Source: Actinomycetospora termitidis (lineage in GTDB: Bacteria; Actinomycetota; Actinomycetes; Mycobacteriales; Pseudonocardiaceae). From it: a DNA stretch of 64,000 nt. This document shows positions 29,107 to 57,712 of the stretch, piece by piece. A model generated the notes under the pieces. The model had not been told where the DNA came from, did no database searches, and saw only the letters and a program-made list of their open reading frames with translations. The stretch spans positions 248,001 to 312,000 of the forward strand of contig NZ_JASVWF010000003.1 in NCBI RefSeq assembly GCF_030286555.1. The letters run 5' to 3'. Position numbers and translations under genes: made by a program. How positions within the stretch are numbered: the stretch's first letter is position 1; each line of letters opens with the position of its first letter.

Positions 29107-29113
29107 ATGGGGG

Positions 29114-29488
29114 TGGAGGTGCCGGGAATCGAACCCGGGTCCTCCGAACACCTGTCAGGACTTCTCCGTGCGCAGTCTGCGTCGTCTCTACTCGGGTCCG
29201 CCGATCGTGCAGACACGCCGGCGTGACGACCCCAGTCACTGTCTGGTGTCCCACCGGGCCCCGTGACCGGGCCCGATGGTGGAGTCCCCTGGCTGATGCC
29301 GGCGACCGGGTCGGGAACGAACCCGGGCCGACAGACCTCAACCCGCTACTTAGGCAGCGAGCTGGAGGTCGCGCTGAGTACTGTTCTCGGCGCTTATTTT
29401 TTTGCGACGGGTGGTTATCGAGATCATCGTCGCCTTCCTCGGCACGCTTCCCCTGATCAACCGTCCGGAGTCGAAACCAGTCACCCCC
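29114..29488 (-). ncRNA. ssrA: tmRNA (ssrA)
   Basis: About 375 nt. The tRNA-like ends pair as GGGGGTG/CACCTCC, with a T arm containing CCCGGGTTCGATTCCCGG. The 5' part has the diagnostic 'ACTGGTTTCGAC'. The tag frame follows 'AAAAAAATAAGC': GCC GAG AAC ... GCT GCC TAA, reading AENSTQRDLQLAA. The QRD and LAA parts match the mycobacterial tag (ADSHQRDYALAA); the middle differs. tmRNA rescues ribosomes stalled on broken mRNA and tags the product for ClpP. smpB, its partner, lies one gene upstream. Confidence 0.96.
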
Positions 29489-47694: not shown

Positions 47695-48255
47695 TCAGCC
47701 CTCCTCGTCCGGCTCGGGGCCGATCTCCAGGCCCGCGCCGGCCGACAGCCCCTCGAGGTAGCCGATCGCGCGCTCGTGACGCGGGTAGCGCGCCTCGAGG
47801 GCGCGGAACGCGGGGCCGTGGCCGGACTCGCGCAGGTGCGCGAGTTCGTGCACCAGGACGTGGTCGAGGACCCACCCCGGCACCTCGCGGAGCCGTTCGC
47901 TGACCCGGATCGTGCCGTCGCTCGGGGTGCAGGACGCCCATCGGGTGCGCATCGGCGCCACCCAGCGCACCGAGACCGGCCGGGGCCACCGGCCGTCCGG
48001 GCCGACGGCGTCGAGGTGCTCGTGGGCCAGCCGGTCGGCGCGGGCGGCCAGGTCGGCGTCGCCGGCGGTCCGCCCCGGGCGGCGCCGCGCCTCCGACCGC
48101 TCGATCCGCGCGAGCATCTCGCTCACCCAGCGCTCCTCCTGCGCCCGGCTCATGGAAGCCGGGATCGAGACGACGACGGTGTCGCCCTCGCGCCGGGCGT
48201 CCACGGTGCGCTTCCGCCTGGCGCTGCGCTTCACGACGACCCGGGGAGCCTCCAC
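47695..48255 (-). CDS. YgjP-like M48-type metallopeptidase domain protein
   Basis: 186 residues. The zinc motif 'LVHELAHLRESGHGPAFRALEARY' gives HExxH near residue 135 and a third ligand (H/E) downstream. 'WVAPMRTRWASCTPSDGTIRVSERL' is the family's upstream motif (the 'RxRWGSC' box). These short cytoplasmic proteins occur near restriction and repair genes in other bacteria; role unknown. GTG start; 56 bp divergent from the ThiF-like gene. Confidence 0.88.
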   Translation of the reverse strand: MEAPRVVVKRSARRKRTVDARREGDTVVVSIPASMSRAQEERWVSEMLARIERSEARRRPGRTAGDADLAARADRLAHEHLDAVGPDGRWPRPVSVRWVAPMRTRWASCTPSDGTIRVSERLREVPGWVLDHVLVHELAHLRESGHGPAFRALEARYPRHERAIGYLEGLSAGAGLEIGPEPDEEG

Positions 48256-48311
48256 GGCGGTCCACCGTAGGTCAGTGGATCCGGAGGCCGCCGTCGTGCG
48301 TCGGAACGGGT

Positions 48312-49271
48312 GTGACGACCAGCCCTGTCCCGCACCTGACCACCGCTCCGCGGTGGCGCGACGCCACCACCGCCCAGTTCGGCGACCACCTCGACGCGCC
48401 CGTCCTCGAGGGCCTGGACCCGCCGTTGCGCGTCCTGCTGGCTGCTCTGCGGAGCTCGCCCGACGGGGCGGTCGCCACCGCGGTCGCGCGCGGGGCGCGG
48501 CCCGAGGACGTCCGGGAGGTGCTCGCCGAGCTGGGCGCCGCCCGGCTCCTGCGTCCGCCGGGCGAGCGCACGGTCCGGCAGGCCTACGTCCGGGTGCACG
48601 GCGCGGGCCGGACGGGCGTCGCGATCGCCACGGTGCTGGCCGCCTCCGGCGTCGGGCGGGTCGCGGTGCGGGCGTCCGGTCCGGTGGGGCCCGGCGACCC
48701 GGGAACGGGCCTGGACCACGGTGAGGTCGGTCACCCGGCGGTCCTCGCAGCGGCGGCCGCCGTGGCCCGGGCCGCGCCCGGGGTCGCGGTGGCCGAGCCG
48801 ACCCGCCGTCGTCCGGACCTGGTCGTGCTCACCGGGGCGGCCGTCGCCGACCGCGCGGTGACGGCGCCGCTGCAGGCCCGCCACCAGCCCCACCTCGCGG
48901 TGACGGTGCACGACCCGGTGGGCGTGGTGGGGCCGCTCGTCGTGCCAGGACGCACGTCGTGCCTGCGCTGCGCCGACCGCCACCGCGAGGACGCCGACCC
49001 CGCCCGGGGCGACCTCGACGCGCAGCGGGCGGACCTCGCGACGTCGGTCCCGGTGGCCCTGGCGACGGTCGTCGCGGGCCTCGTCGTCGGGCAGGTGCTC
49101 GAGTACCTGGCGGGTCGGCCGGCCCTGCGCGAGGCGGTCGAGGAGGTCGACCCGACCCGCGGCACGTGGGTCCGTCGGGCGTGCCCACCGCATCCCTCGT
49201 GTCCGTGTACCGGCGCACCTCCGCGCGCCCCGGCCGCGCGGGCGGGGGAGAATCGGGGGCGTGTCCGATGA
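48312..49271 (+). CDS. ThiF/E1-like protein with zinc-type Cys motifs (Rv3196-like)
   Basis: 319 residues. The N-terminal ~90 residues form a winged-helix-like region ('PPLRVLLAALRSSPDGAVATAVAR'). A Rossmann start 'RVHGAGRTGVAIATVLAASGVGRVAVR' matches the ThiF/MoeB/E1 nucleotide site. 'VVPGRTSCLRCADRHRED' and a C-terminal 'CPPHPSCPC' give a zinc site. The usual catalytic Cys and the Arg finger/Asp that bind ATP are not obvious, so it may have lost adenylation activity. It overlaps the ABC1 gene by 11 bases. Confidence 0.78.
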   Translation: MTTSPVPHLTTAPRWRDATTAQFGDHLDAPVLEGLDPPLRVLLAALRSSPDGAVATAVARGARPEDVREVLAELGAARLLRPPGERTVRQAYVRVHGAGRTGVAIATVLAASGVGRVAVRASGPVGPGDPGTGLDHGEVGHPAVLAAAAAVARAAPGVAVAEPTRRRPDLVVLTGAAVADRAVTAPLQARHQPHLAVTVHDPVGVVGPLVVPGRTSCLRCADRHREDADPARGDLDAQRADLATSVPVALATVVAGLVVGQVLEYLAGRPALREAVEEVDPTRGTWVRRACPPHPSCPCTGAPPRAPAARAGENRGRVR

Positions 49272-50574
49272 GATCCCGCGCCGCACGGTCCAACGATCCG
49301 CGCGACTGGCCTCCCTGCCGCTGGGGTTCGCCTCGCGCACGGCGGCCGGCTGGGGTCGCCGCCTCGCCGGCGGGGACGCCGGCGAGATCTCCGCCGACGT
49401 GGCCCGCCGCGGCGCCGAGCAGCTGTTCGCGGTGCTCGGGGAGCTCAAGGGCGGCGCGATGAAGTTCGGGCAGGCCCTGTCCGTCTTCGAGGCCGCCGTG
49501 CCCGACGAGCTGGCGGAGCCCTACCGCGAGGCCCTGACCCGGCTGCAGACCGCGGCGCCGCCGATGCCGACCGCCCGGACCCACCGGGTGCTCGCCGAGC
49601 AGTTCGGGCGGGGCTGGCGGGAGCGGTTCCGCGAGTTCGACGACACCCCGGCCGCGTCCGCGAGCATCGGGCAGGTGCACCGCGCGGTGTGGGGCGACGG
49701 ACGCGAGGTCGCCGTCAAGGTCCAGTACCCGGGCGCGGAGGAGGCCGTGATGGCCGACCTGCGCCAGCTGCAGCGCTTCGCGCGCGTCATCCAGCCGATG
49801 GTGCCGGGGATGGAGATCAAGCCCCTGCTCCAGGAACTGCGCGACCGGATGGCCGAGGAGCTCGACTACCGCGACGAGGCCGACGCACAGCGCGCGTTCG
49901 CCGCCGCGTTCGAGGGCGACGAGCACGTGGTGGTGCCCCGCGTGGTCGCGTCGGCGCCGAAGGCGATGGTCTCGGAGTGGATCACGGGCACGCCGCTCTC
50001 GCAGGTCATCCGGGTCGGCGAGCCGGACGAGCGGGACCGGGTCGGCACGCTGCTCTCCACGTTCCACTTCTCGGCGCCCGCCCGGGTCGGGCTCCTGCAC
50101 GCCGACCCGCACCCCGGGAACTTCCAGGTCCTGCCCGACGGCCGGCTCTGCGTGATCGACTTCGGGGCCGTCGCCCGCCTGCCCGACGGGCTGCCCCTCG
50201 AGCTGGGGCAGATGCTCGCCCTCGCCGTCGAGGACCGCTCCGACGAGTTGCTGGACCTGCTGCGCGACCTGAACTTCGTGCTGCCCGACACCGACATGTC
50301 CGCGGAGCGGGCGATGGCCTACCTCGGGCCCCTGGTCGACCCGCTGCGCACCGAGAAGTTCCACTTCACCCGCGAGTGGATCCGCGGGCAGGCCGAGCGG
50401 CTCGGTGACCTGCGGCGCCCCGAGTTCGAGACCGGTCGCGGACTGAACCTGCCGCCGCAGTACCTGTTGATCCACCGGGTGACGCTGGCCTCGGTGGCGG
50501 TGCTGTGTCAGCTGGACGCCGAGATCGGGCTGCGCTCGATCTTCCGGGACTGGCAGCCCGGCTTCGACGTGTAG
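49261..50574 (+). CDS. ABC1/UbiB-family atypical kinase (Rv3197-like)
   Basis: 437 residues. Family signatures: 'GGAMKFGQALSVFEAAVPDELAEPYREALTRLQTAAPP' with the KxGQ motif, 'ASASIGQVHRA' (the Ala-rich loop that replaces the P-loop), 'VAVKVQYPGAEE' (Lys), 'AEELDYRDEADAQRAF', 'LLHADPHPGNFQVL' and 'VIDFGAVARL' (Asp pairs). In mycobacteria the gene sits next to whiB7 and belongs to its drug-resistance regulon. GTG start overlaps the ThiF-like gene. Confidence 0.92.
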   Translation: MSDEIPRRTVQRSARLASLPLGFASRTAAGWGRRLAGGDAGEISADVARRGAEQLFAVLGELKGGAMKFGQALSVFEAAVPDELAEPYREALTRLQTAAPPMPTARTHRVLAEQFGRGWRERFREFDDTPAASASIGQVHRAVWGDGREVAVKVQYPGAEEAVMADLRQLQRFARVIQPMVPGMEIKPLLQELRDRMAEELDYRDEADAQRAFAAAFEGDEHVVVPRVVASAPKAMVSEWITGTPLSQVIRVGEPDERDRVGTLLSTFHFSAPARVGLLHADPHPGNFQVLPDGRLCVIDFGAVARLPDGLPLELGQMLALAVEDRSDELLDLLRDLNFVLPDTDMSAERAMAYLGPLVDPLRTEKFHFTREWIRGQAERLGDLRRPEFETGRGLNLPPQYLLIHRVTLASVAVLCQLDAEIGLRSIFRDWQPGFDV

Positions 50575-50575
50575 G

Positions 50576-50611
50576 GGCGAGGGACCCCCGGGTGGTCGGG
50601 GGTCCCTCGCC
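50576..50611. terminator. Bidirectional terminator between ABC1 and whiB7
   Basis: A 15-bp perfect stem (GGCGAGGGACCCCCG / CGGGGGTCCCTCGCC) with a 6-nt loop GGTGGT. It starts 1 nt after the ABC1 stop and ends 18 nt before the convergent whiB7 stop, so it can serve both genes. Confidence 0.85.
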
Positions 50612-50629
50612 GGGACGGGGCCGGGGGCG

Positions 50630-50947
50630 TCACGCCACGCCGGCCGCCGCCCGGGCAGCCGCGATCTCGGCGTCCCGCGCGAGGTCGGCCTTCGACGGCC
50701 GGCCCCGGGGACGCTTGCGCGCGATCACGGCGCCGCGGTCGAGGATCTCGCCGCCCCACACCCCGGTGAACTCGCGGCGCTCCAGGGCTCCACTGAGGCA
50801 GGCCCGACGGATCGGGCAGGCCGCGCAGAGCACCTTGGCCTGCTCGAGCTCGGCCGGGCTGTCGGAGAACCAGAGGTCGTCGGGCTCCGTGCGGCAGGGC
50901 AGGGAGACCGACCGGGTTATGTCGGGGGCGGTGGGCACGGAGTACAT
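50630..50947 (-). CDS. whiB7: WhiB7-type redox/antibiotic-response transcription factor
   Basis: 105 residues from ATG 50947, with GGAGG 9 bases upstream. Four Fe-S Cys: C18, C41, C44 and C50 ('LCAACPIRRAC'). 'GVWGGE' at ~62-67 is the sigma-A-facing turn, and the WhiB7-specific AT-hook 'KRPRGRP' at ~78-84 binds AT-rich DNA. It activates intrinsic antibiotic resistance genes together with sigma-A. A longer in-frame GTG start (50989) is possible but would exceed the family length. Control is by the leader at 50948-51430. Confidence 0.95.
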   Translation of the reverse strand: MYSVPTAPDITRSVSLPCRTEPDDLWFSDSPAELEQAKVLCAACPIRRACLSGALERREFTGVWGGEILDRGAVIARKRPRGRPSKADLARDAEIAAARAAAGVA

Positions 50948-51027
50948 GAGTCGGACCTCCAACGGCGGGGGTGTTCGTCTGGTGGTCACCCGGACCGCGG
51001 AGCCGACGTCCTGTGGGACGACGACGA

Positions 51028-51057
51028 AGGCCGCGGACCGGAGTGGGTCCGCGGCCT
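51028..51057 (-). terminator. Attenuator hairpin in the whiB7 leader
   Basis: A 12-bp perfect stem (AGGCCGCGGACC / GGTCCGCGGCCT) with a 6-nt loop, followed on the minus strand by TTCGTCGTCGTCC. It lies 80 nt upstream of the whiB7 ATG and 16 nt after the uORF stop codon. A downstream segment at 50992-51000 can pair with one arm with a single mismatch, giving a possible alternative fold. Confidence 0.75.
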
Positions 51058-51073
51058 GGGAGAGCGTTCGGTG

Positions 51074-51343
51074 TCAGCCCTGGGGCTGACAACCGATCAG
51101 GCGCGGACGCTGAGGGTCGAGAACGACGTGACGCTGCGGGGCGGGGGAGCCGGCCGGGCGGGAGCCCGGGAGTCCCGTCGCCGGGGACACCTCTCCCCCT
51201 GTGACCGGACCTGCCGGCACGGCCGCGAACGCGCGGGTGCGGATCAACGCATCGGGCGCGGTGCGGTACCAGCTGCAGACGTCCGCCGTCGCGAAGACGC
51301 TGACGGCGCTGGAGACGGGCATGCCCGTGAACACGTTCTTCAT
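51074..51343 (-). CDS. whiB7 upstream ORF (regulatory leader peptide)
   Basis: 89 codons, ATG to TGA, in the long leader before whiB7. The protein begins 'MKNVFTGMPVSSAVSVFA' and then 'DVCSWYRTAPDALIRTR'; the second half is Pro/Gly/Arg-rich and looks unstructured. It matches no enzyme. The stop codon is inside a small hairpin (GTCAGCCC/GGGCTGAC, 51073-51090), and the attenuator begins 16 nt later. whiB7/wblC genes in mycobacteria and streptomycetes are known to be controlled by translation of a uORF; here it is inferred by position and structure. Confidence 0.65.
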   Translation of the reverse strand: MKNVFTGMPVSSAVSVFATADVCSWYRTAPDALIRTRAFAAVPAGPVTGGEVSPATGLPGSRPAGSPAPQRHVVLDPQRPRLIGCQPQG

Positions 51344-51399
51344 CGGTGGCACACCCCCTCGTCTCGACCCCGGACACGTGCGCGCCGGGAGTGCTGACG

Positions 51400-51429
51400 A
51401 ACCTAGGGGCCTCCGTGTGGAGGCCGCAA
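51400..51429 (-). promoter_or_regulatory. Predicted WhiB7-type autoregulated promoter of whiB7
   Basis: On the minus strand the -35 is TTGCGG (51429-51424) and the -10 TAGGTT (51405-51400), with an 18-bp spacer. Immediately upstream of the -35 is the AT-rich GGTTAATTCC, where WhiB7's AT-hook is known to bind. The spacer holds a perfect inverted repeat, GGCCTCC-GTGT-GGAGGCC (51408-51425). The expected RNA start is near 51393, giving a leader of ~445 nt. Confidence 0.65.
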
Positions 51430-51461
51430 CGGAATTAACCGGAGATTCGCCGAGAAAGTCG

Positions 51462-53600
51462 TCAGCCCGCGTGCTCGCGGACCATGGTGAGGACGTCGTC
51501 GCCGTAACGCTCCAGCTTCGAGGCCCCGATCCCGGGGATCGTGACGAGGCCCTTCGTGTCCTGTGGACGCTGCTCGGCGAGCGCGACCAGCGTGGCGTCG
51601 GTGAACACGACGTAGGCCGGCACCGAGCGCTGCTTGGCCTCGTTCGAGCGCCAGCTGCGCAGGGCGTCGAGCAGCTCGACGTCGACGTCGGAGGGGTGCT
51701 CGGTGCAGCGCCCGATCTTCTGGGCCGCCGCGTCGGCGAGCACCTTGCCGCAGACCCGGCACCCGGCCTTCGCGACCTTCGCCCTCGGGCCGCCGTCGAC
51801 CCCGGACCCCGGCTTGCGGGCGGCCGGGTGGTCCTCGGGCACCAGGCCGTAGAGGAAGCGGCTGCGCCGACGGGAGCGGCGGCCACCGGACTGCCGCGCC
51901 AGCGCCCAGGAGAGCCGGAGGTGCACGCGTGCGCGCGTCACGCCGACGTAGAGCAGGCGGCGCTCCTCCTCCACCGCCTCGTCGTCGCCGTCGGCGTGCT
52001 GGATCGGCAGCGTCCCGTCGACGAGCCCGACCAGGAACACCGCGTCCCACTCCAGGCCCTTCGCCGCGTGCAGCGAGGCCAGCGTGACGCCCTGCACGGT
52101 CGGCGGGTGCTGGGCCTGCATCCGGGTGCCCAGCTCCGCGAGGAACGCGCCGTAGGTCGCCTCGGGGACCGCCTCGACCAGGTCGCTCGCGAGCTCGGCG
52201 AGCGCGCGCAGCGACTCCCAGCGCTGGCGCTGCGCGCCGTCGGCGGCGCTGCCGGCGGGCGGGACGTCGGTGAGTCCCTGCTCGCCCAGCACGGCACGGA
52301 CGGTGGTGACGACGTCGGCACCGGCGACCCCCTCCGGCCCGCCCTCGAGCCGGGTGCCGAGGGTGCGCAGCGTCGCGATCGCGTTCTTGACCTCGGTCCG
52401 CTGGAAGAACCGCTCGCCGCCGCGGACCTGGTAGGGGATCCCGACGTCGGAGAGTGCCTGCTCGTAGACCTCGGACTGGGCGTTGATCCGGAACAGCACC
52501 GCGATCTCGGCAGCGGGCACACCGTCGTCGATCAGCTCCCGGATCTGCTGTGCGGTGGCCGCCGCCTCGGCGGGCTCGTCGTCGTGCTCGGCGAAGTCCG
52601 GCGTCGGCCCGGGCGGGCGCTGGCCCTCGAGGCGCAGCCGGGTCCCGGCCGCGCGACCGCGGGCGGCGCCGATGACGGTGTTCGCGGCCGCGACCACCTG
52701 CGGGGTGGACCGGTAGTCGCGCACCAGCCGGACGATCTCGGCCTCGGGGTGCCGGCGGGGGAAGTCGAGCAGGTAGGACGGGCTCGCGCCGGCGAACGAG
52801 TAGATGGTCTGGTTCGCGTCGCCGACCACGGTCAGGTCGTCCCGCCCGCCGAGCCAGGCGTCGAGCAGCCGGTGCTGCAGGGGCGTGACGTCCTGGAACT
52901 CGTCGACGACGAAGCAGCGGTAGCGCTCCCGGAACTCGTCGGCGACCTCCGCGGTCTCCTCCAGGGCCCCGGCGGTGTGGATCAGCAGGTCCTCGAAGTC
53001 GAGCTGCTCGGCCCGGTTCTTGAGCTCCTCGTAGGTCGCGTAGACCTGCGCGACCTGCTCGACGGGGGCCGGGGAGTCGCGCTGGGCCCTCGCGGCGGCC
53101 TCGGCGTAGCGGTCCGGGGCGATCAGGCACGCCTTGGACCACTCGATCTCGCTCGCGAGGTCCCGCAGCGACTCGCGGTTCGTGGCCGCTCCCGCCCGCT
53201 GCGCGGCCTGCCCCACGAACCGGACCTTGTTCTCGATCAGCGGCCACGCGTCGCCGCCGACCGCCCGGGGCCAGAAGTAGCGCAGCTGGCGCAGCGCCGC
53301 GGCATGGAAGGTGCGGGCCTGCACCCCGCCGACGCCGAGATCGCGCAGCCGGGTGCGCATCTCCCCCGCGGCGCGGGCGGTGAAGGTCACCGCGAGGACC
53401 TGACCGCCACGGACCTGCTCGGTGCGCACCAGGTGCGCGATCCGCCGGGTGATCGTGCGGGTCTTGCCCGTGCCGGCGCCGGCGAGCACGCAGACCGGAC
53501 CGCGCGGGGCGACGACGGCCGCCTTCTGCTCGGGATCCAGTCCGTCGGTCGCACTCCGGTCCGCCGCCACGTCCTCCATCGTCTCAACCGCCCCCGACAT
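51462..53600 (-). CDS. uvrD2: UvrD2-like DNA helicase with Zn-Cys motif and HRDC domain
   Basis: 712 residues, near the mycobacterial UvrD2 (700). SF1A motifs: Walker A 'AGAGTGKT' (~40-47), 'LAVTFTARAAGEMR', 'VVDEFQDVTPLQHRLLD', 'VVGDANQTIYSFAGA', 'TLASLHAAKGLEWDAVFL', 'LLYVGVTRARVHL'. A tetracysteine module ('GCRVCGKVL', 'IGRCTEH') links to a C-terminal HRDC domain (~620-710). It unwinds DNA in repair. The ATG at 53600 lies inside the end of the AraC gene; ATG 53579 is an alternative. Confidence 0.94.
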   Translation of the reverse strand: MSGAVETMEDVAADRSATDGLDPEQKAAVVAPRGPVCVLAGAGTGKTRTITRRIAHLVRTEQVRGGQVLAVTFTARAAGEMRTRLRDLGVGGVQARTFHAAALRQLRYFWPRAVGGDAWPLIENKVRFVGQAAQRAGAATNRESLRDLASEIEWSKACLIAPDRYAEAAARAQRDSPAPVEQVAQVYATYEELKNRAEQLDFEDLLIHTAGALEETAEVADEFRERYRCFVVDEFQDVTPLQHRLLDAWLGGRDDLTVVGDANQTIYSFAGASPSYLLDFPRRHPEAEIVRLVRDYRSTPQVVAAANTVIGAARGRAAGTRLRLEGQRPPGPTPDFAEHDDEPAEAAATAQQIRELIDDGVPAAEIAVLFRINAQSEVYEQALSDVGIPYQVRGGERFFQRTEVKNAIATLRTLGTRLEGGPEGVAGADVVTTVRAVLGEQGLTDVPPAGSAADGAQRQRWESLRALAELASDLVEAVPEATYGAFLAELGTRMQAQHPPTVQGVTLASLHAAKGLEWDAVFLVGLVDGTLPIQHADGDDEAVEEERRLLYVGVTRARVHLRLSWALARQSGGRRSRRRSRFLYGLVPEDHPAARKPGSGVDGGPRAKVAKAGCRVCGKVLADAAAQKIGRCTEHPSDVDVELLDALRSWRSNEAKQRSVPAYVVFTDATLVALAEQRPQDTKGLVTIPGIGASKLERYGDDVLTMVREHAG

Positions 53601-54324
53601 CGTGGGGCCCGACCGGCCGGGCCCGTCGTCGGAACTGGCCCGGGGTCTCGCCCGCGAGCCGGGCGAACTGGCGGGTGAACGCGGGCTGGTCGTAGAACCC
53701 GCAGGCCAGCGCGATCCCGGCCAGCGGGAGGTCGGTGGTGGTGAGCAGGGACCGGGCCCGGTCGATGCGGGCGCGGAGCACGAACTGGGTCGGGGCGAGC
53801 CCGAACACCGCCCGCATCCGACGTTCGAGGGCGGACGTCGACAGGCCGGCGGTGGCCGCCAGCTCCTCCACGCGCGGAGGGTCGTCGAGGCGGCGGGCGA
53901 CGAGGTCGACGACGCGCGACAGCGCGGGCATCCCGGGGTCGGTCTCGTCGGCCGAGCGGAGGTCCTCGGACACGCTGACGACGCCGACCGCGACGCCGTG
54001 GGCCACCACCGGCACCTTCGTCGTCAGGTACCAGCCCGGGACCCCGCCCTCGCGGCGGATCAGTTCGAGCTCGTGGCGCAGGACCCGGCCCTCGGCGAGC
54101 ACCCGCCGGTCCTGCTCCTCGTAGCGCTCGGCCAGCGCGGGCACGAACAGCTCGGGCGCGCGGCGGCCGACGACGCCCGAGCGGTCCCGCCGGTTCGTGC
54201 GCCGGACGAAGGCGTCGTTGACCTCGGTGTAGCGCCCGTCGGCGTCCTTCGCGCAGAACATCACGCCCGTCAGCTCGGCGAACAGCGCGACGAGCGCGTC
54301 GGCGGGCACCTCCACCCGGGGCAT
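53584..54324 (-). CDS. AraC-family transcriptional regulator with N-terminal PAS domain
   Basis: 246 residues from ATG 54324. GAGGAGG directly abuts that ATG, and GTG 54315 nine bases on has ideal spacing, so the real start may be 54315. The PAS domain (~10-125) contains 'GVMFCAKDADGRYTEVNDAFVRRTNR' and 'GWYLTTKVPVV'. The AraC double HTH follows (~140-240; 'PRVEELAATAGLSTSALERRMRAVFG', 'IALACGFYDQPAFTRQFAR'). It is divergent from putA over 85 bp, so it probably controls proline use; the PAS ligand is unknown. Confidence 0.87.
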   Translation of the reverse strand: MPRVEVPADALVALFAELTGVMFCAKDADGRYTEVNDAFVRRTNRRDRSGVVGRRAPELFVPALAERYEEQDRRVLAEGRVLRHELELIRREGGVPGWYLTTKVPVVAHGVAVGVVSVSEDLRSADETDPGMPALSRVVDLVARRLDDPPRVEELAATAGLSTSALERRMRAVFGLAPTQFVLRARIDRARSLLTTTDLPLAGIALACGFYDQPAFTRQFARLAGETPGQFRRRARPVGPHDVGGG

Positions 54325-54409
54325 CCTCCTCGCGCGTTGGTGCCCCGCGGCGGCCGGTGCGCCGGATTCGGACAAGAAGACTGTCGGGGGTCGGGTGGAC
54401 AGTGGACCC

Positions 54410-57400
54410 ATGAGCGAGCAGGTCGTGCTGGGCAGCCCGGTGATCGACGACGCGATGGTCGGGCGCGCGGAGGCCCGGGCCGCGCGGTGGTCCGCGGCGA
54501 GCGACGATGCGGGTCACGACGCCGCGACCCGTCGGCTCGCCTCCCTCGTGCACGATCCCGCCGGGGTCGACTTCGCGATGCACTTCGTCGACCGGGTCGC
54601 CCGCCCGGAGGACGACACCGTGGCCGCGCGCGAGCTGGCCCGGATCGCCGGCCGCGGCGCTACGCTGCCCGGGTTCGCCTCCGCGCTCGACCGTCTGATG
54701 CTGCGGGCCGGGGCCGCCCTGGCAGCCCGGGCGCCGCGGCTCGTCGTCCCGCTCGCCCGGCGCCGGCTGCAGCAGCTCGTCGGGCACCTCGTGGTCGACG
54801 CGTCCGGGCGGGCGCTGCGGCGGCGCCTCGCGGCGGCCCGGGCGGACGGGTTCCGGCTGAACCTCAACCTGCTCGGCGAGGCGGTCCTCGGTGAGGACGA
54901 GGCCGACCGGCGGCTGGCGCGCACGCTGGACCTGATCCGGCGTGACGACGTGGACTACGTGTCGGTCAAGGCCTCGTCGGTGGCCAGCCAGCTCGTGCCG
55001 TGGGACCTCGAGGGCAGCCGCGACCGGCTGGTCCGGCGGCTCACGCCGCTGTTCGAGACCGCGCGCGACCACGGCGTCTTCGTCAACCTGGACATGGAGG
55101 AGTACAAGGACCTCGACCTCACGGTCGCGCTCTTCACCGCCCTGCTCGACCAGCCGTCGCTGCGGGGGTACTCGGCGGGGATCGTCCTGCAGGCCTATCT
55201 CCCGGACTCCGTCGCCGCACTGGAGCACCTCGCGGCCTTCGCCCGACGCCGGGTCGACGCCGGGGGCGCGCCGGTGAAGGTCCGGCTGGTCAAGGGCGCG
55301 AACCTGGCGATGGAGGGGGTGGACGCCGCGCTGCACGGCTGGCCGCAGGCCCCGTACGCCACGAAGGCCGAGGTCGACGCGAACTACGTGCGCCTGCTCG
55401 ACCGGGCGCTGCGCCCGGAGCTCGCCGACGCGCTGCGGATCGGCGTGGCGAGCCACCACCTGCACCACGTCGCGCTGGCCGTCGAGCTCGCCGCGGCCCG
55501 GGGCGTCTCCGCCCAGATGGACGTCGAGATGCTGCAGGGGATGGCCCCGGCGCAGGCCCGGGCGGTCGCGGCGGATCTGCCGGAGTCGGGGTTGGTCCTC
55601 TACACGCCGGTGGTGCACGCCGAGGACTTCGATGCGGCGGTCAGCTACCTCGTCCGCCGCCTGGAGGAGAACGCCGGGCACGAGAACTACCTGTACGCGA
55701 TGTTCTCCGACGACGGTCCCGCCTCCTACCTCGGCCGGTTCCGCGCGTCGGTCGCCGAGCACGACGCCGTGGCCGACTCCCCGCGCCGCACCCAGGACCG
55801 GTCGACGGAGGTCCCCGTCGTCGGGACCGCGTTCCGCAACGAGCCTGACACCGATCCGTCGCTGGGCGCGAACCGCGACTGGGCCCGGCGGGCGGTCGGG
55901 GCCGCACCCGCCGTCGTGGGCGCGCCGGAGCTGACCGACCCGGCCGATGTGGACGCCGTGGTGGACCGCGCCGCGGCGTCGACGTGGCGGGACGTGCCTC
56001 CGGCCGAGCGCGCCCGACTGCTGCGCGGGGCGGCCCGCTCCCTGGCCGTGGCCCGCACGGACCTGCTGACGACGATGGTCCACGAGGCGGGCAAGACGGT
56101 CGCGGAGGCCGACCCGGAGATCTCCGAGGCGGTCGACTTCGCGGCCTACTACGCCGACCGGGCGCTGGAGCTCGATCCTGAGCGCTTCACCCCGGCCCGG
56201 GTCGTCGTCGTGACCCCGCCGTGGAACTTCCCGGTCGCGATCCCGCTCGGCGGCTGCCTCGCGGCGCTGACGGCGGGTGCCGCCGTCGTCATCAAGCCGG
56301 CACCGCAGGTCCGGGCGTGCGCGGAGGTTGGGGTGGCCGCTCTGCACGCGGCCGGGATCCCGGCGGACGCGCTGCAGCTGGTGCACACCGACGAGGGCGA
56401 CGCCGGGCGCCGGCTGGTGACCCATCCCGACGTCGAGCGGGTGGTGCTCACGGGTGCGAGCGAGACCGCGGCCCTGTTCCGCTCCTGGCGCCCGGACCTC
56501 GCCGTCGTCGCGGAGACCAGCGGGAAGAACGCGCTGGTGATCACGCCGGCGGCCGACCCGGACCTCGCGGTGGCCGACCTCGTGCGCTCGGCGTTCGGGC
56601 ACGCCGGCCAGAAGTGCTCGGCGGCCTCGCTCGCGATCCTCGTCGGGTCGGTGGCCGACCCGCGCTCGAAGGTCGGGCGACGCTTCCGCCGTCAGCTGCT
56701 CGACGCCGTGCGCACGCTGCGGGTCGGTCCGGGCACCGACCTGTCGTCGACGATGGGACCGCTGGTCGGTGAGCTCTCGCCCAAGCTGGAGCGGGCGCTG
56801 ACCACGCTGGAGCCCGGGGAGTCGTGGCTGGTGGAGCCGCGCCGGGTCGAGGTGGGCACGTGGACTCCAGGGGTGCGTGAGGGTGTCGCCCCCGGCTCGT
56901 GGTTCCACCTCACGGAGTGCTTCGGGCCGGTCCTCGGGCTGATGAGTGCCACCACTCTCGACGAGGCGATCGAGCTCCAGAACGCGACCGGCTACGGGCT
57001 CACCGGGGGCCTGCACTCGCTCGACCGGGACGAGGTCGAGCACTGGATGGAGCGGGTCGAGGTCGGCAACGCGTACGTCAACCGGCACATCACCGGGGCG
57101 ATCGTGCAGCGGCAGTCGTTCGGGGGGTGGAAGGGCTCGGTCGTGGGGCCCGGCGCGAAGCCCGGGGGCCCGAACTACGTCGCGCAGTTCGGGACGTGGG
57201 CCGACGTCGCCATGCCGGAGTCCGCCCCGCTCGGGCGGGCGGCCTCCGGGCTGCTCGCGTCGGTCGCGTCGGCGGTGCCCGCGGAGGACCTCGCGTGGCT
57301 GCGGGCGGCGGCGGGCTCGGACGCGTACTGGTGGCGGGAGGAGTTCGGCGTGGAGCACGACCCGACGGGCATCGCCGCGGAGGCCAACGTCTTCCGGTAC

Positions 57401-57712
57401 CGGCCGCTGCCGGGGCTCCGGGTGGTGGTCGGCGACGGCGCGGCCGACCGCGACGTGGTGCGGCTCCGCCTCGCGGGCGCCTGCGCGGGCGTTCCGGTCG
57501 CCGACGTCACCCCGGAGGTCGTGCCGGCGCCGGGAGAACGTCTGCGGGTCGTCGGGGCGGCGACGGACGCGCTGCGGCGCCGCGCGGCCGAGGTGGGCGC
57601 ATCGCTGGTCGAGGGGCCGGTGCTGGCCGACGGTCGGCGGGAGATGCTCACGGTGCTGCGCGAGCAGGCGGTCAGCATCACCCGGCACCGTTTCGGTCAC
57701 GTGGAAGCCTGA
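54410..57712 (+). CDS. putA: Bifunctional proline dehydrogenase / glutamate-semialdehyde dehydrogenase PutA
   Basis: 1100 residues. The N-terminal PRODH barrel (~60-470) has 'FRLNLNLLGEAVLG', 'VDYVSVKASSVASQL', 'VKVRLVKGANLAMEG' and 'YLYAMFSDDGPASYLGRF'-type FAD contacts. The ALDH domain (~500-950) has 'TPPWNFPVAIPLGGCLAALTAG', the Glu in 'AETSGKNALVI' (~702) and the catalytic Cys in 'GHAGQKCSAASLAIL' (~736). A C-terminal ~120-residue part with no motif follows. It oxidises proline to glutamate, passing electrons to quinone and NAD. No ribbon-helix-helix DNA-binding domain is present, unlike E. coli PutA. Confidence 0.95.
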   Translation: MSEQVVLGSPVIDDAMVGRAEARAARWSAASDDAGHDAATRRLASLVHDPAGVDFAMHFVDRVARPEDDTVAARELARIAGRGATLPGFASALDRLMLRAGAALAARAPRLVVPLARRRLQQLVGHLVVDASGRALRRRLAAARADGFRLNLNLLGEAVLGEDEADRRLARTLDLIRRDDVDYVSVKASSVASQLVPWDLEGSRDRLVRRLTPLFETARDHGVFVNLDMEEYKDLDLTVALFTALLDQPSLRGYSAGIVLQAYLPDSVAALEHLAAFARRRVDAGGAPVKVRLVKGANLAMEGVDAALHGWPQAPYATKAEVDANYVRLLDRALRPELADALRIGVASHHLHHVALAVELAAARGVSAQMDVEMLQGMAPAQARAVAADLPESGLVLYTPVVHAEDFDAAVSYLVRRLEENAGHENYLYAMFSDDGPASYLGRFRASVAEHDAVADSPRRTQDRSTEVPVVGTAFRNEPDTDPSLGANRDWARRAVGAAPAVVGAPELTDPADVDAVVDRAAASTWRDVPPAERARLLRGAARSLAVARTDLLTTMVHEAGKTVAEADPEISEAVDFAAYYADRALELDPERFTPARVVVVTPPWNFPVAIPLGGCLAALTAGAAVVIKPAPQVRACAEVGVAALHAAGIPADALQLVHTDEGDAGRRLVTHPDVERVVLTGASETAALFRSWRPDLAVVAETSGKNALVITPAADPDLAVADLVRSAFGHAGQKCSAASLAILVGSVADPRSKVGRRFRRQLLDAVRTLRVGPGTDLSSTMGPLVGELSPKLERALTTLEPGESWLVEPRRVEVGTWTPGVREGVAPGSWFHLTECFGPVLGLMSATTLDEAIELQNATGYGLTGGLHSLDRDEVEHWMERVEVGNAYVNRHITGAIVQRQSFGGWKGSVVGPGAKPGGPNYVAQFGTWADVAMPESAPLGRAASGLLASVASAVPAEDLAWLRAAAGSDAYWWREEFGVEHDPTGIAAEANVFRYRPLPGLRVVVGDGAADRDVVRLRLAGACAGVPVADVTPEVVPAPGERLRVVGAATDALRRRAAEVGASLVEGPVLADGRREMLTVLREQAVSITRHRFGHVEA

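Follow-up and report, generated by a model that had tools for sequence, protein, structure and literature searches.

The uORF-controlled transcription attenuator of whiB7/wblC was reportedly characterised in Streptomyces and Mycobacterium by Lee, Lee and Roe in 2022 and by Burian and Thompson in 2018. uORF attenuation of these genes is reported in the available excerpts of PMC10727445, PMC9618640, PMC11550727, PMC13393426, PMC4128351 and PMC13236596. As far as the excerpts of PMC10727445, PMC11550727 and PMC9618640 describe it, the attenuator consists of a long leader, a uORF, a Rho-independent terminator and an antiterminator that shares sequence with both the uORF and the terminator. In the attenuation of ARE ABC-F genes, again as described in an excerpt, a drug-stalled uORF turns a terminator into an antiterminator; the uORFs concerned are very short (MLV; MVGDDDISG) and stalled at the start codon (PMC12421871).

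The window analysed here is a stretch of 64,000 nucleotides from the 6.56 Mb genome of Actinomycetospora termitidis, for which the nearest named relatives found were A. soli, A. endophytica and A. chiangmaiensis. On its minus strand the order of elements is a uvrD2-like gene, promoter, 89-codon uORF, stop hairpin, terminator (arms B and C), tail, hairpin E, segment D, Shine-Dalgarno sequence and whiB7. We consider it very probable that the whiB7 leader is a uORF-controlled transcription attenuator of the established kind. Judged by the partial descriptions cited above, it has in common with the Streptomyces and Mycobacterium systems the downstream whiB7 gene, the long leader, the uORF, a predicted terminator and an antiterminator sharing uORF and terminator sequence, and differs from them in a U-poor terminator tail and an additional conserved segment, D, after the terminator. 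With the ARE ABC-F leaders, on the same footing, it would share the switch from terminator to antiterminator by a drug-stalled uORF; unlike their short uORFs, its own is long and carries the antiterminator arm close to the end.

The locus, the leader and its uORF

The gene downstream of the leader is a whiB7/wblC ortholog. We take its product to be WhiB7 from the uvrD2-like neighbour and from its motifs, the UvrD2 name of that neighbour being likewise our assumption; a search of the protein against NCBIfam matched no family. The source genome has 10 Wbl-like matches, this gene among them, and relatives are present in Actinomycetospora and in mycobacteria. Protein comparison gave one strong match per genome in 16 of 18 genus genomes, and a match in 290 of 297 family genomes with the genus counted in. 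Convergent with whiB7 lies a gene for an ABC1/UbiB-type kinase (49261-50574, plus strand) that is close to the macrolide-binding ATPase MABP-1 (E=2.8e-158, under that model's cut-off), with a long hairpin between the two genes. A 1105-aa frame on the plus strand (54395-57712) is presumably, by its look, a putA-like fused proline dehydrogenase/aldehyde dehydrogenase.

Table 1 Features of the whiB7 leader and the adjoining genes, in window positions
Feature	Position	Strand	Remarks
uvrD2-like helicase gene, upstream of whiB7	51462-53600	minus	NCBIfam PcrA/UvrD matches, below cut-offs
Predicted whiB7 promoter	51400..51443	minus	-35 TTGCGG 51429-51424; -10 TAGGTT 51405-51400; spacing 18
uORF	51074..51343	minus	89 codons + TGA; Shine-Dalgarno-like GAGGGGG about 10 nt upstream
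Segment A, antiterminator arm inside the uORF	51102..51108	minus	GTCCGCG; pairs with B
Stop-codon hairpin	51068..51096	minus	TGA 51076-51074; from single-leader folds
Terminator 5' arm B	51046..51057	minus	AGGCCGCGGACC
Terminator 3' arm C	51028..51039	minus	GGTCCGCGGCCT
U-poor terminator tail	51017..51027	minus	TCGTCGTCGTC
Spacer hairpin E	51004..51026	minus	CGTCGTCGTCC / GGACGTCG; 4 pairs in the RNAalifold consensus, inside C:D
Segment D	50990..51002	minus	CTCCGCGGTCCGG; may pair with C, or else with B or the whiB7 Shine-Dalgarno
whiB7 Shine-Dalgarno	50956..50960	minus	GGAGG
whiB7 CDS	50630..50947	minus	105 aa; ATG at 50947; GVWGGE and RGRPSK AT-hook

A consensus match to the promoter predicts a transcription start near 51392, giving the leader of 445 nt that a preliminary description, made from the letters of the window, had estimated. 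The other elements named there are likewise present in the sequence, at most a base or two from the places given (the whiB7 ATG lies at 50947 rather than 50948). A promoter of the form TTGC/17-18 nt/TAnnnT is predicted in all 16 genus leaders, and just 5' of the -35 element lies an AT-rich TTAATT, presumably the site of WhiB7 autoregulation.

Leaders were compared across 16 genus members and 40 further regions, picked among the matches listed, in 39 of the 274 family genomes of other genera with a match, and representing 29 of 45 other genera. Of these 56 leaders, 53 (16 from the genus and 37 from outside) passed a filter for the B:C terminator core. The three that failed were L079, L082 and L087: L082 has no clear terminator, and L087 has a similar hairpin with an altered C arm that the filter missed. 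L079 (genome G054) belongs to a second WhiB7-like copy in its genome, with no attenuator core upstream. The automated choice of terminator hairpin was wrong for L012, L079 and L082.

A putative uORF of 62-100 codons with a Shine-Dalgarno sequence occupies the same place in the long leader in 16 of 16 genus members. A mechanical search of the 37 other family leaders called frames of 55-95 codons, their stop codons 19-41 nt before B and some of their starts uncertain. An 89-codon uORF is therefore usual for the family, and not the unusual trait it had been taken for. The pooled GC content of the genus uORFs at codon positions 1, 2 and 3 (0.70, 0.63 and 0.89) fits a translated frame; clear purifying selection on the peptide is not seen, as NG86 estimates of dN/dS within the genus scatter on both sides of 1, in a test that leaves GC-rich third positions unmodelled and is limited by codon bias and by overlapping RNA constraints. 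For L011, where the start picked mechanically was internal, dN/dS was calculated from a GTG start. By eye, a PGxxxSG-like motif recurs in several called uORF N-termini across genera (family leaders L051-L090), which could mark a peptide or an RNA constraint. A candidate hairpin in the N-terminal part of the uORF was dropped, its folds differing between leaders.

The uORF stop codon is, as first described, buried in a short hairpin (GTCAGCC/GGCTGAC, 51090-51073). The corresponding motif CCTGAC..GTCAGG is the majority consensus of the 53-leader alignment; the hairpin itself is absent from the RNAalifold output on the 53-leader and 16-leader alignments.

The putative terminator and a candidate antiterminator arm within the uORF

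The 12-bp stem reported at 51028-51057 is present, and the 46-nt segment around it has a predicted fold of -27.3 kcal/mol. The stem core GGCCGCGG occurs in 53 of 56 leaders and is invariant in 16 of 16 from the genus. Among further class-level leaders (29 loci, from 103 genomes with a match, and eight named mycobacterial loci), a scan that demanded four or more T among the 10 bases following the stem found a GGCC(G/A)CGG terminator hairpin before whiB7 in 31 of 37; the exceptions had no hairpin (L097, L111, L114) or an unrelated one (L033, L034, L093). A terminator of like form, GGCCACGG, precedes whiB7 in six of the eight named Mycobacterium, Mycolicibacter and Mycobacteroides loci, the mycobacterial stems having A-U instead of G-C.

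The covariance model R1, built from the 53 leaders and hence including the 16 of the genus, matched in 94 of 118 class genomes, and the ten best class matches all lie just upstream of whiB7 matches. Within the genus R1 matched in 17 of 18 genomes, the 17th (G011, an incomplete genome) weakly. Other genes under the same attenuator were sought among some of the secondary matches and rejected: three from the genus (L132, L133, L134) are ordinary-looking hairpins, one of them after the tmRNA gene. Six secondary class matches (L135-L140) were scanned for tRNAs, and two of the six contained one. An Rfam search of positions 48000-54000 and six related loci returned three matches, all to microRNA families and below the gathering score.

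The preliminary description had called the attenuator strong and did not mention that its tail is U-poor: the longest T run is 1-3 in the 16 genus leaders versus 2-7 in the 37 others, and the outer stem is extended by 0-2 bp in the genus versus 1-7 elsewhere. Considered as a Rho-independent terminator, the element joins a poor U-tract to a stem core that does not vary within the genus and is common across the class; because of that tail, intrinsic termination in the whiB7 leader is only putative. The window also contains a tmRNA gene (29112-29488, minus strand; tag AENSTQRDLQLAA); after it, at about 29107-29065, comes a strong hairpin whose TTCGTCGT tail matches that of the whiB7 attenuator. 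Such tails may therefore act as terminators here, on the strength of one example. The wider proposal that CGGCCTTCGTCGT is a genus-wide terminator tail was rejected, since among 11 sites only the tmRNA example supports it; the strongest hairpins at these sites are those of tmRNA (-34.4) and whiB7 (-27.3), the remaining sites being weaker.

As a competitor of the terminator stem, a segment downstream of it had originally been put forward. A better candidate for the main antiterminator lies upstream, in the uORF, where it had been missed. Segment A carries GTCCGCG, complementary to CGCGGAC of B. Its GTCCGC is present in all 16 genus leaders and is read in phase 1 in seven of them and phase 2 in nine, giving RPR-like residues in one phase versus SA-like residues in the other. 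Invariance despite two reading phases indicates that A is conserved as RNA and not as peptide.

A search of related leaders for co-variation was suggested as a check at the outset, and co-variation of A with B is found outside the genus. Among the 31 of 37 non-genus leaders with either GGAAC or GGACC in B, 14 of 15 GGAAC leaders have GTTCC in their A window versus none of 16 GGACC leaders (Fisher p=5.7e-8); counted by genus, the figures are 11 of 12 versus none of 14 (p=1.6e-6). GTCC is found in 13 of the 16 GGACC leaders. Against strict matching, GTCC also turns up in six of the 15 GGAAC leaders, either beside GTTCC or in its place. One genus (g5) holds both types of B, and there A follows B, both of its GGAAC leaders carrying both motifs. 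Outside the genus, native A:B duplexes average -15.2 versus -14.0 kcal/mol when swapped (p=2e-4, the smallest value this test can give). Windows displaced by -60, -40 or +20 fail the same test, and the window at -20 passes but overlaps A. Inside the genus the swap test gives p=0.03, and no compensatory A:B change was seen among the 16 leaders. An adenine of B has no partner in C in nine of the 16 aligned genus leaders and pairs with a uracil of A in all 16.

Pairing strength by itself is mostly unremarkable, being uninformative at a GC content that offers too many GC-rich alternatives: A:B was stronger than in shuffles (p<0.05) in only four of 53 leaders and in none of the 16 from the genus. 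What exceeds chance is conservation (all 16 genus leaders keep the terminator, A and D, 53 of 56 leaders keep the terminator core, and the D core is better conserved than the spacer beside it) together with the co-variation of A and B across the family. RNAalifold on the 53-leader alignment returned the terminator only, without A:B.

Folding with and without an occupying ribosome, also suggested at the outset, gave a divided answer. Before C is made, the predicted probability of A:B exceeds 0.8 in all 16 genus leaders (mean 0.97). With C present and no ribosome, B:C is favoured at equilibrium in 15 of 16 leaders, and in 13 of 16 for the full leader; the switch must therefore be kinetic, decided in time. 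In these folds the loss of A:B when a ribosome occupies A is true by construction, and pairs spanning the ribosome were allowed. Co-variation and folds indicate an antiterminator in which the end of the uORF joins the 5' arm of the terminator, with the caveat that in most leaders it is not the equilibrium structure.

Segment D, downstream of the terminator

The originally proposed downstream segment can indeed pair with one terminator arm: the sequence around 51002-50989 is predicted to form helices of 5, 5 and 3 pairs with arm C at -23.0 kcal/mol, a single U.U mismatch and a bulge of 2 nt lying between them. The opinion that this extra pairing is the unusual part of the leader is borne out. 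All 16 genus leaders have a copy of D, [CT]CGCGG, placed 43-53 nt upstream of the ATG, and the motif occurs anywhere in the region in only three of 37 others. The D core scores 15.7 of 16 in conservation and the spacer preceding it 8.6 of 16; beyond D, up to the Shine-Dalgarno, the sequence is also fairly conserved (11.4, then 13.4). From the alignments, D is conserved and nearly genus-specific, and any function is putative. The available excerpts of the open-licence literature on whiB7 attenuation contain no description of such a segment.

Complementarity between C and the downstream region stands out from shuffles more in the genus than elsewhere. Shuffle p values range from 0.012 to 0.377 across the 16 leaders, with a mean z of -1.63 and p<0.1 in nine of 16, versus -0.27 and six of 37 outside (p=1.4e-4 for the difference). 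With no target given, RNAalifold folded the 16 genus leaders into A:B, C:D and hairpin E, without the terminator, a model in which A:B plus C:D and B:C would be alternative states. Pair counts favour A:B plus C:D (98.6% of cells paired versus at most 52.6% when slid), for a structure derived from the same alignment and thereby favoured. Three of five pair measures lie above those of 499 or more of 500 shuffles; the other two are reached by 416 and 384 of 500. One C:D pair is GC in 11 leaders and CG in four, and another is GU, GC or AU; since the genus leaders form two clades, these compensatory changes may represent one or two events. The C:D swap test in the genus gave p=0.19, with little power for two clades, and when A:B is enforced C:D reaches at least 0.3 in only 11 of 16 ensembles. 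The sequence after C tilts the predicted balance to the read-through fold by a mean of -2.1 kcal/mol in the genus versus +1.7 elsewhere (p=3e-4), means that include two leaders (L022, L023) in which a crude A:B picker mischose the segment; the tilt is reversed in four of the 16 (L009, L010, L011, L013).

D is transcribed after the terminator and so cannot itself stop termination or decide it. At most, D would stabilise the read-through fold or act later. A tentative proposal, which we regard as possible rather than probable, is that Actinomycetospora has added a fourth segment, D taking C once A has B; an antiterminator otherwise purely kinetic would thereby become a bistable RNA, held in the read-through state with no refolding into the terminator hairpin.

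In trp-type attenuators four mutually exclusive segments pair as 1:2 and 3:4 or as 2:3, and the choice is read by the ribosome on the leader peptide. The whiB7 leader shares this geometry with the opposite polarity: here 2:3 is the terminator and 1:2 plus 3:4 the read-through fold. Assignment to the trp-type class was rejected, as 3:4 is not the terminator; no T run follows C:D, and it is B:C that precedes the tail.

Proposed mechanism, alternatives and significance

Taken together, the elements, their conservation, the co-variation of A with B and the folds lend good comparative support to the ribosome-sensing attenuator first suggested for whiB7. RNA polymerase would start near 51392 with a ribosome trailing on the 89-codon uORF. 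A ribosome that reaches the stop codon would cover or separate A and melt the stop hairpin, so that B:C forms and transcription ends at about 51028-51017. An early stall, caused by a ribosome-targeting drug or amino-acid shortage, would leave A free to pair with B once B is made, enclosing the stop hairpin; A:B would kinetically block the terminator, and whiB7 would be transcribed. WhiB7 would then raise the activity of its own promoter. In this genus D, transcribed later than the terminator, would probably pair with the C left free and help to hold the read-through fold. In which direction the switch responds, what part the ribosome plays and what D does are inferred from these models.

Two alternatives concern what D pairs with. 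Its UCCGCGG also matches CCGCGGA in B, and B:D is the sole D pairing to pass the genus swap test (p=0.0002 versus 0.19 for C:D and 0.15 for pairing with the Shine-Dalgarno). That test, however, mostly contrasts two groups, the genus leaders being two clades; B:D stands at 0.00-0.01 in ensembles, RNAalifold picks C:D instead, and by eye the bases after the D core vary with arm C while B hardly varies. Arm B is thus an unlikely partner for D. Quite improbable, too, is a translational switch in which D hides the whiB7 Shine-Dalgarno in the terminator state and C:D frees it in the read-through state. Many leaders do carry CUCC or CCUCCG in D, complementary to GGAG or CGGAGG, and pairing with the Shine-Dalgarno is the chief use of D in several constrained ensembles. 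In either state, nevertheless, the Shine-Dalgarno is largely paired (mean open 0.11 for the terminator state and 0.14 for read-through) and is more open on read-through in only seven of 16 leaders, so that a switch in its accessibility was tested and left unsupported; the swap test likewise fails to single this pairing out.

The remaining alternatives dispense with the terminator or make the peptide the sensor. If the hairpin had decayed along with its U-tract, it would no longer be an intrinsic terminator in the genus and control would be Rho-dependent, translational or by RNA decay. The short T runs and outer stems of the genus would agree with this, yet the stem core is invariant in 16 of 16 leaders, the strong hairpin after tmRNA has the same tail, and a longest T run of 2 is found in six of 37 other family leaders; such decay seems to us distinctly doubtful. 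Least probable is a uORF that encodes a conserved arrest or functional peptide, itself the sensor. The excess of GC3 (0.89) over GC1 and GC2 (0.70 and 0.63) speaks for it, as does a pN/pS of 0.44 over the first 14 codons in the nine leaders of clade 2; the same codons give a ratio of 1.47 in five clade 1 leaders, and dN/dS values on both sides of 1, uORF lengths of 62-100 codons and the reading of A in two phases all point the other way. We therefore retain the attenuator in which A, inside the uORF, competes with C for B.

That A co-varies with B in Pseudonocardiaceae-like genera supports the antiterminator pairing by comparison, independently of fold programs. Furthermore, as the terminator is widespread in the class and has no credible Rfam match, a covariance model of the R1 type could aid annotation. 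In actinobacteria WhiB7 has a central place in regulating intrinsic antibiotic responses, with the attenuator as its sensor. If the proposed capture of C by D is true, it would compensate for, or co-evolve with, the weaker, U-poor terminator, and the nearly genus-specific D would be a natural experiment on the tuning of an attenuator after weakening of its U-tract.
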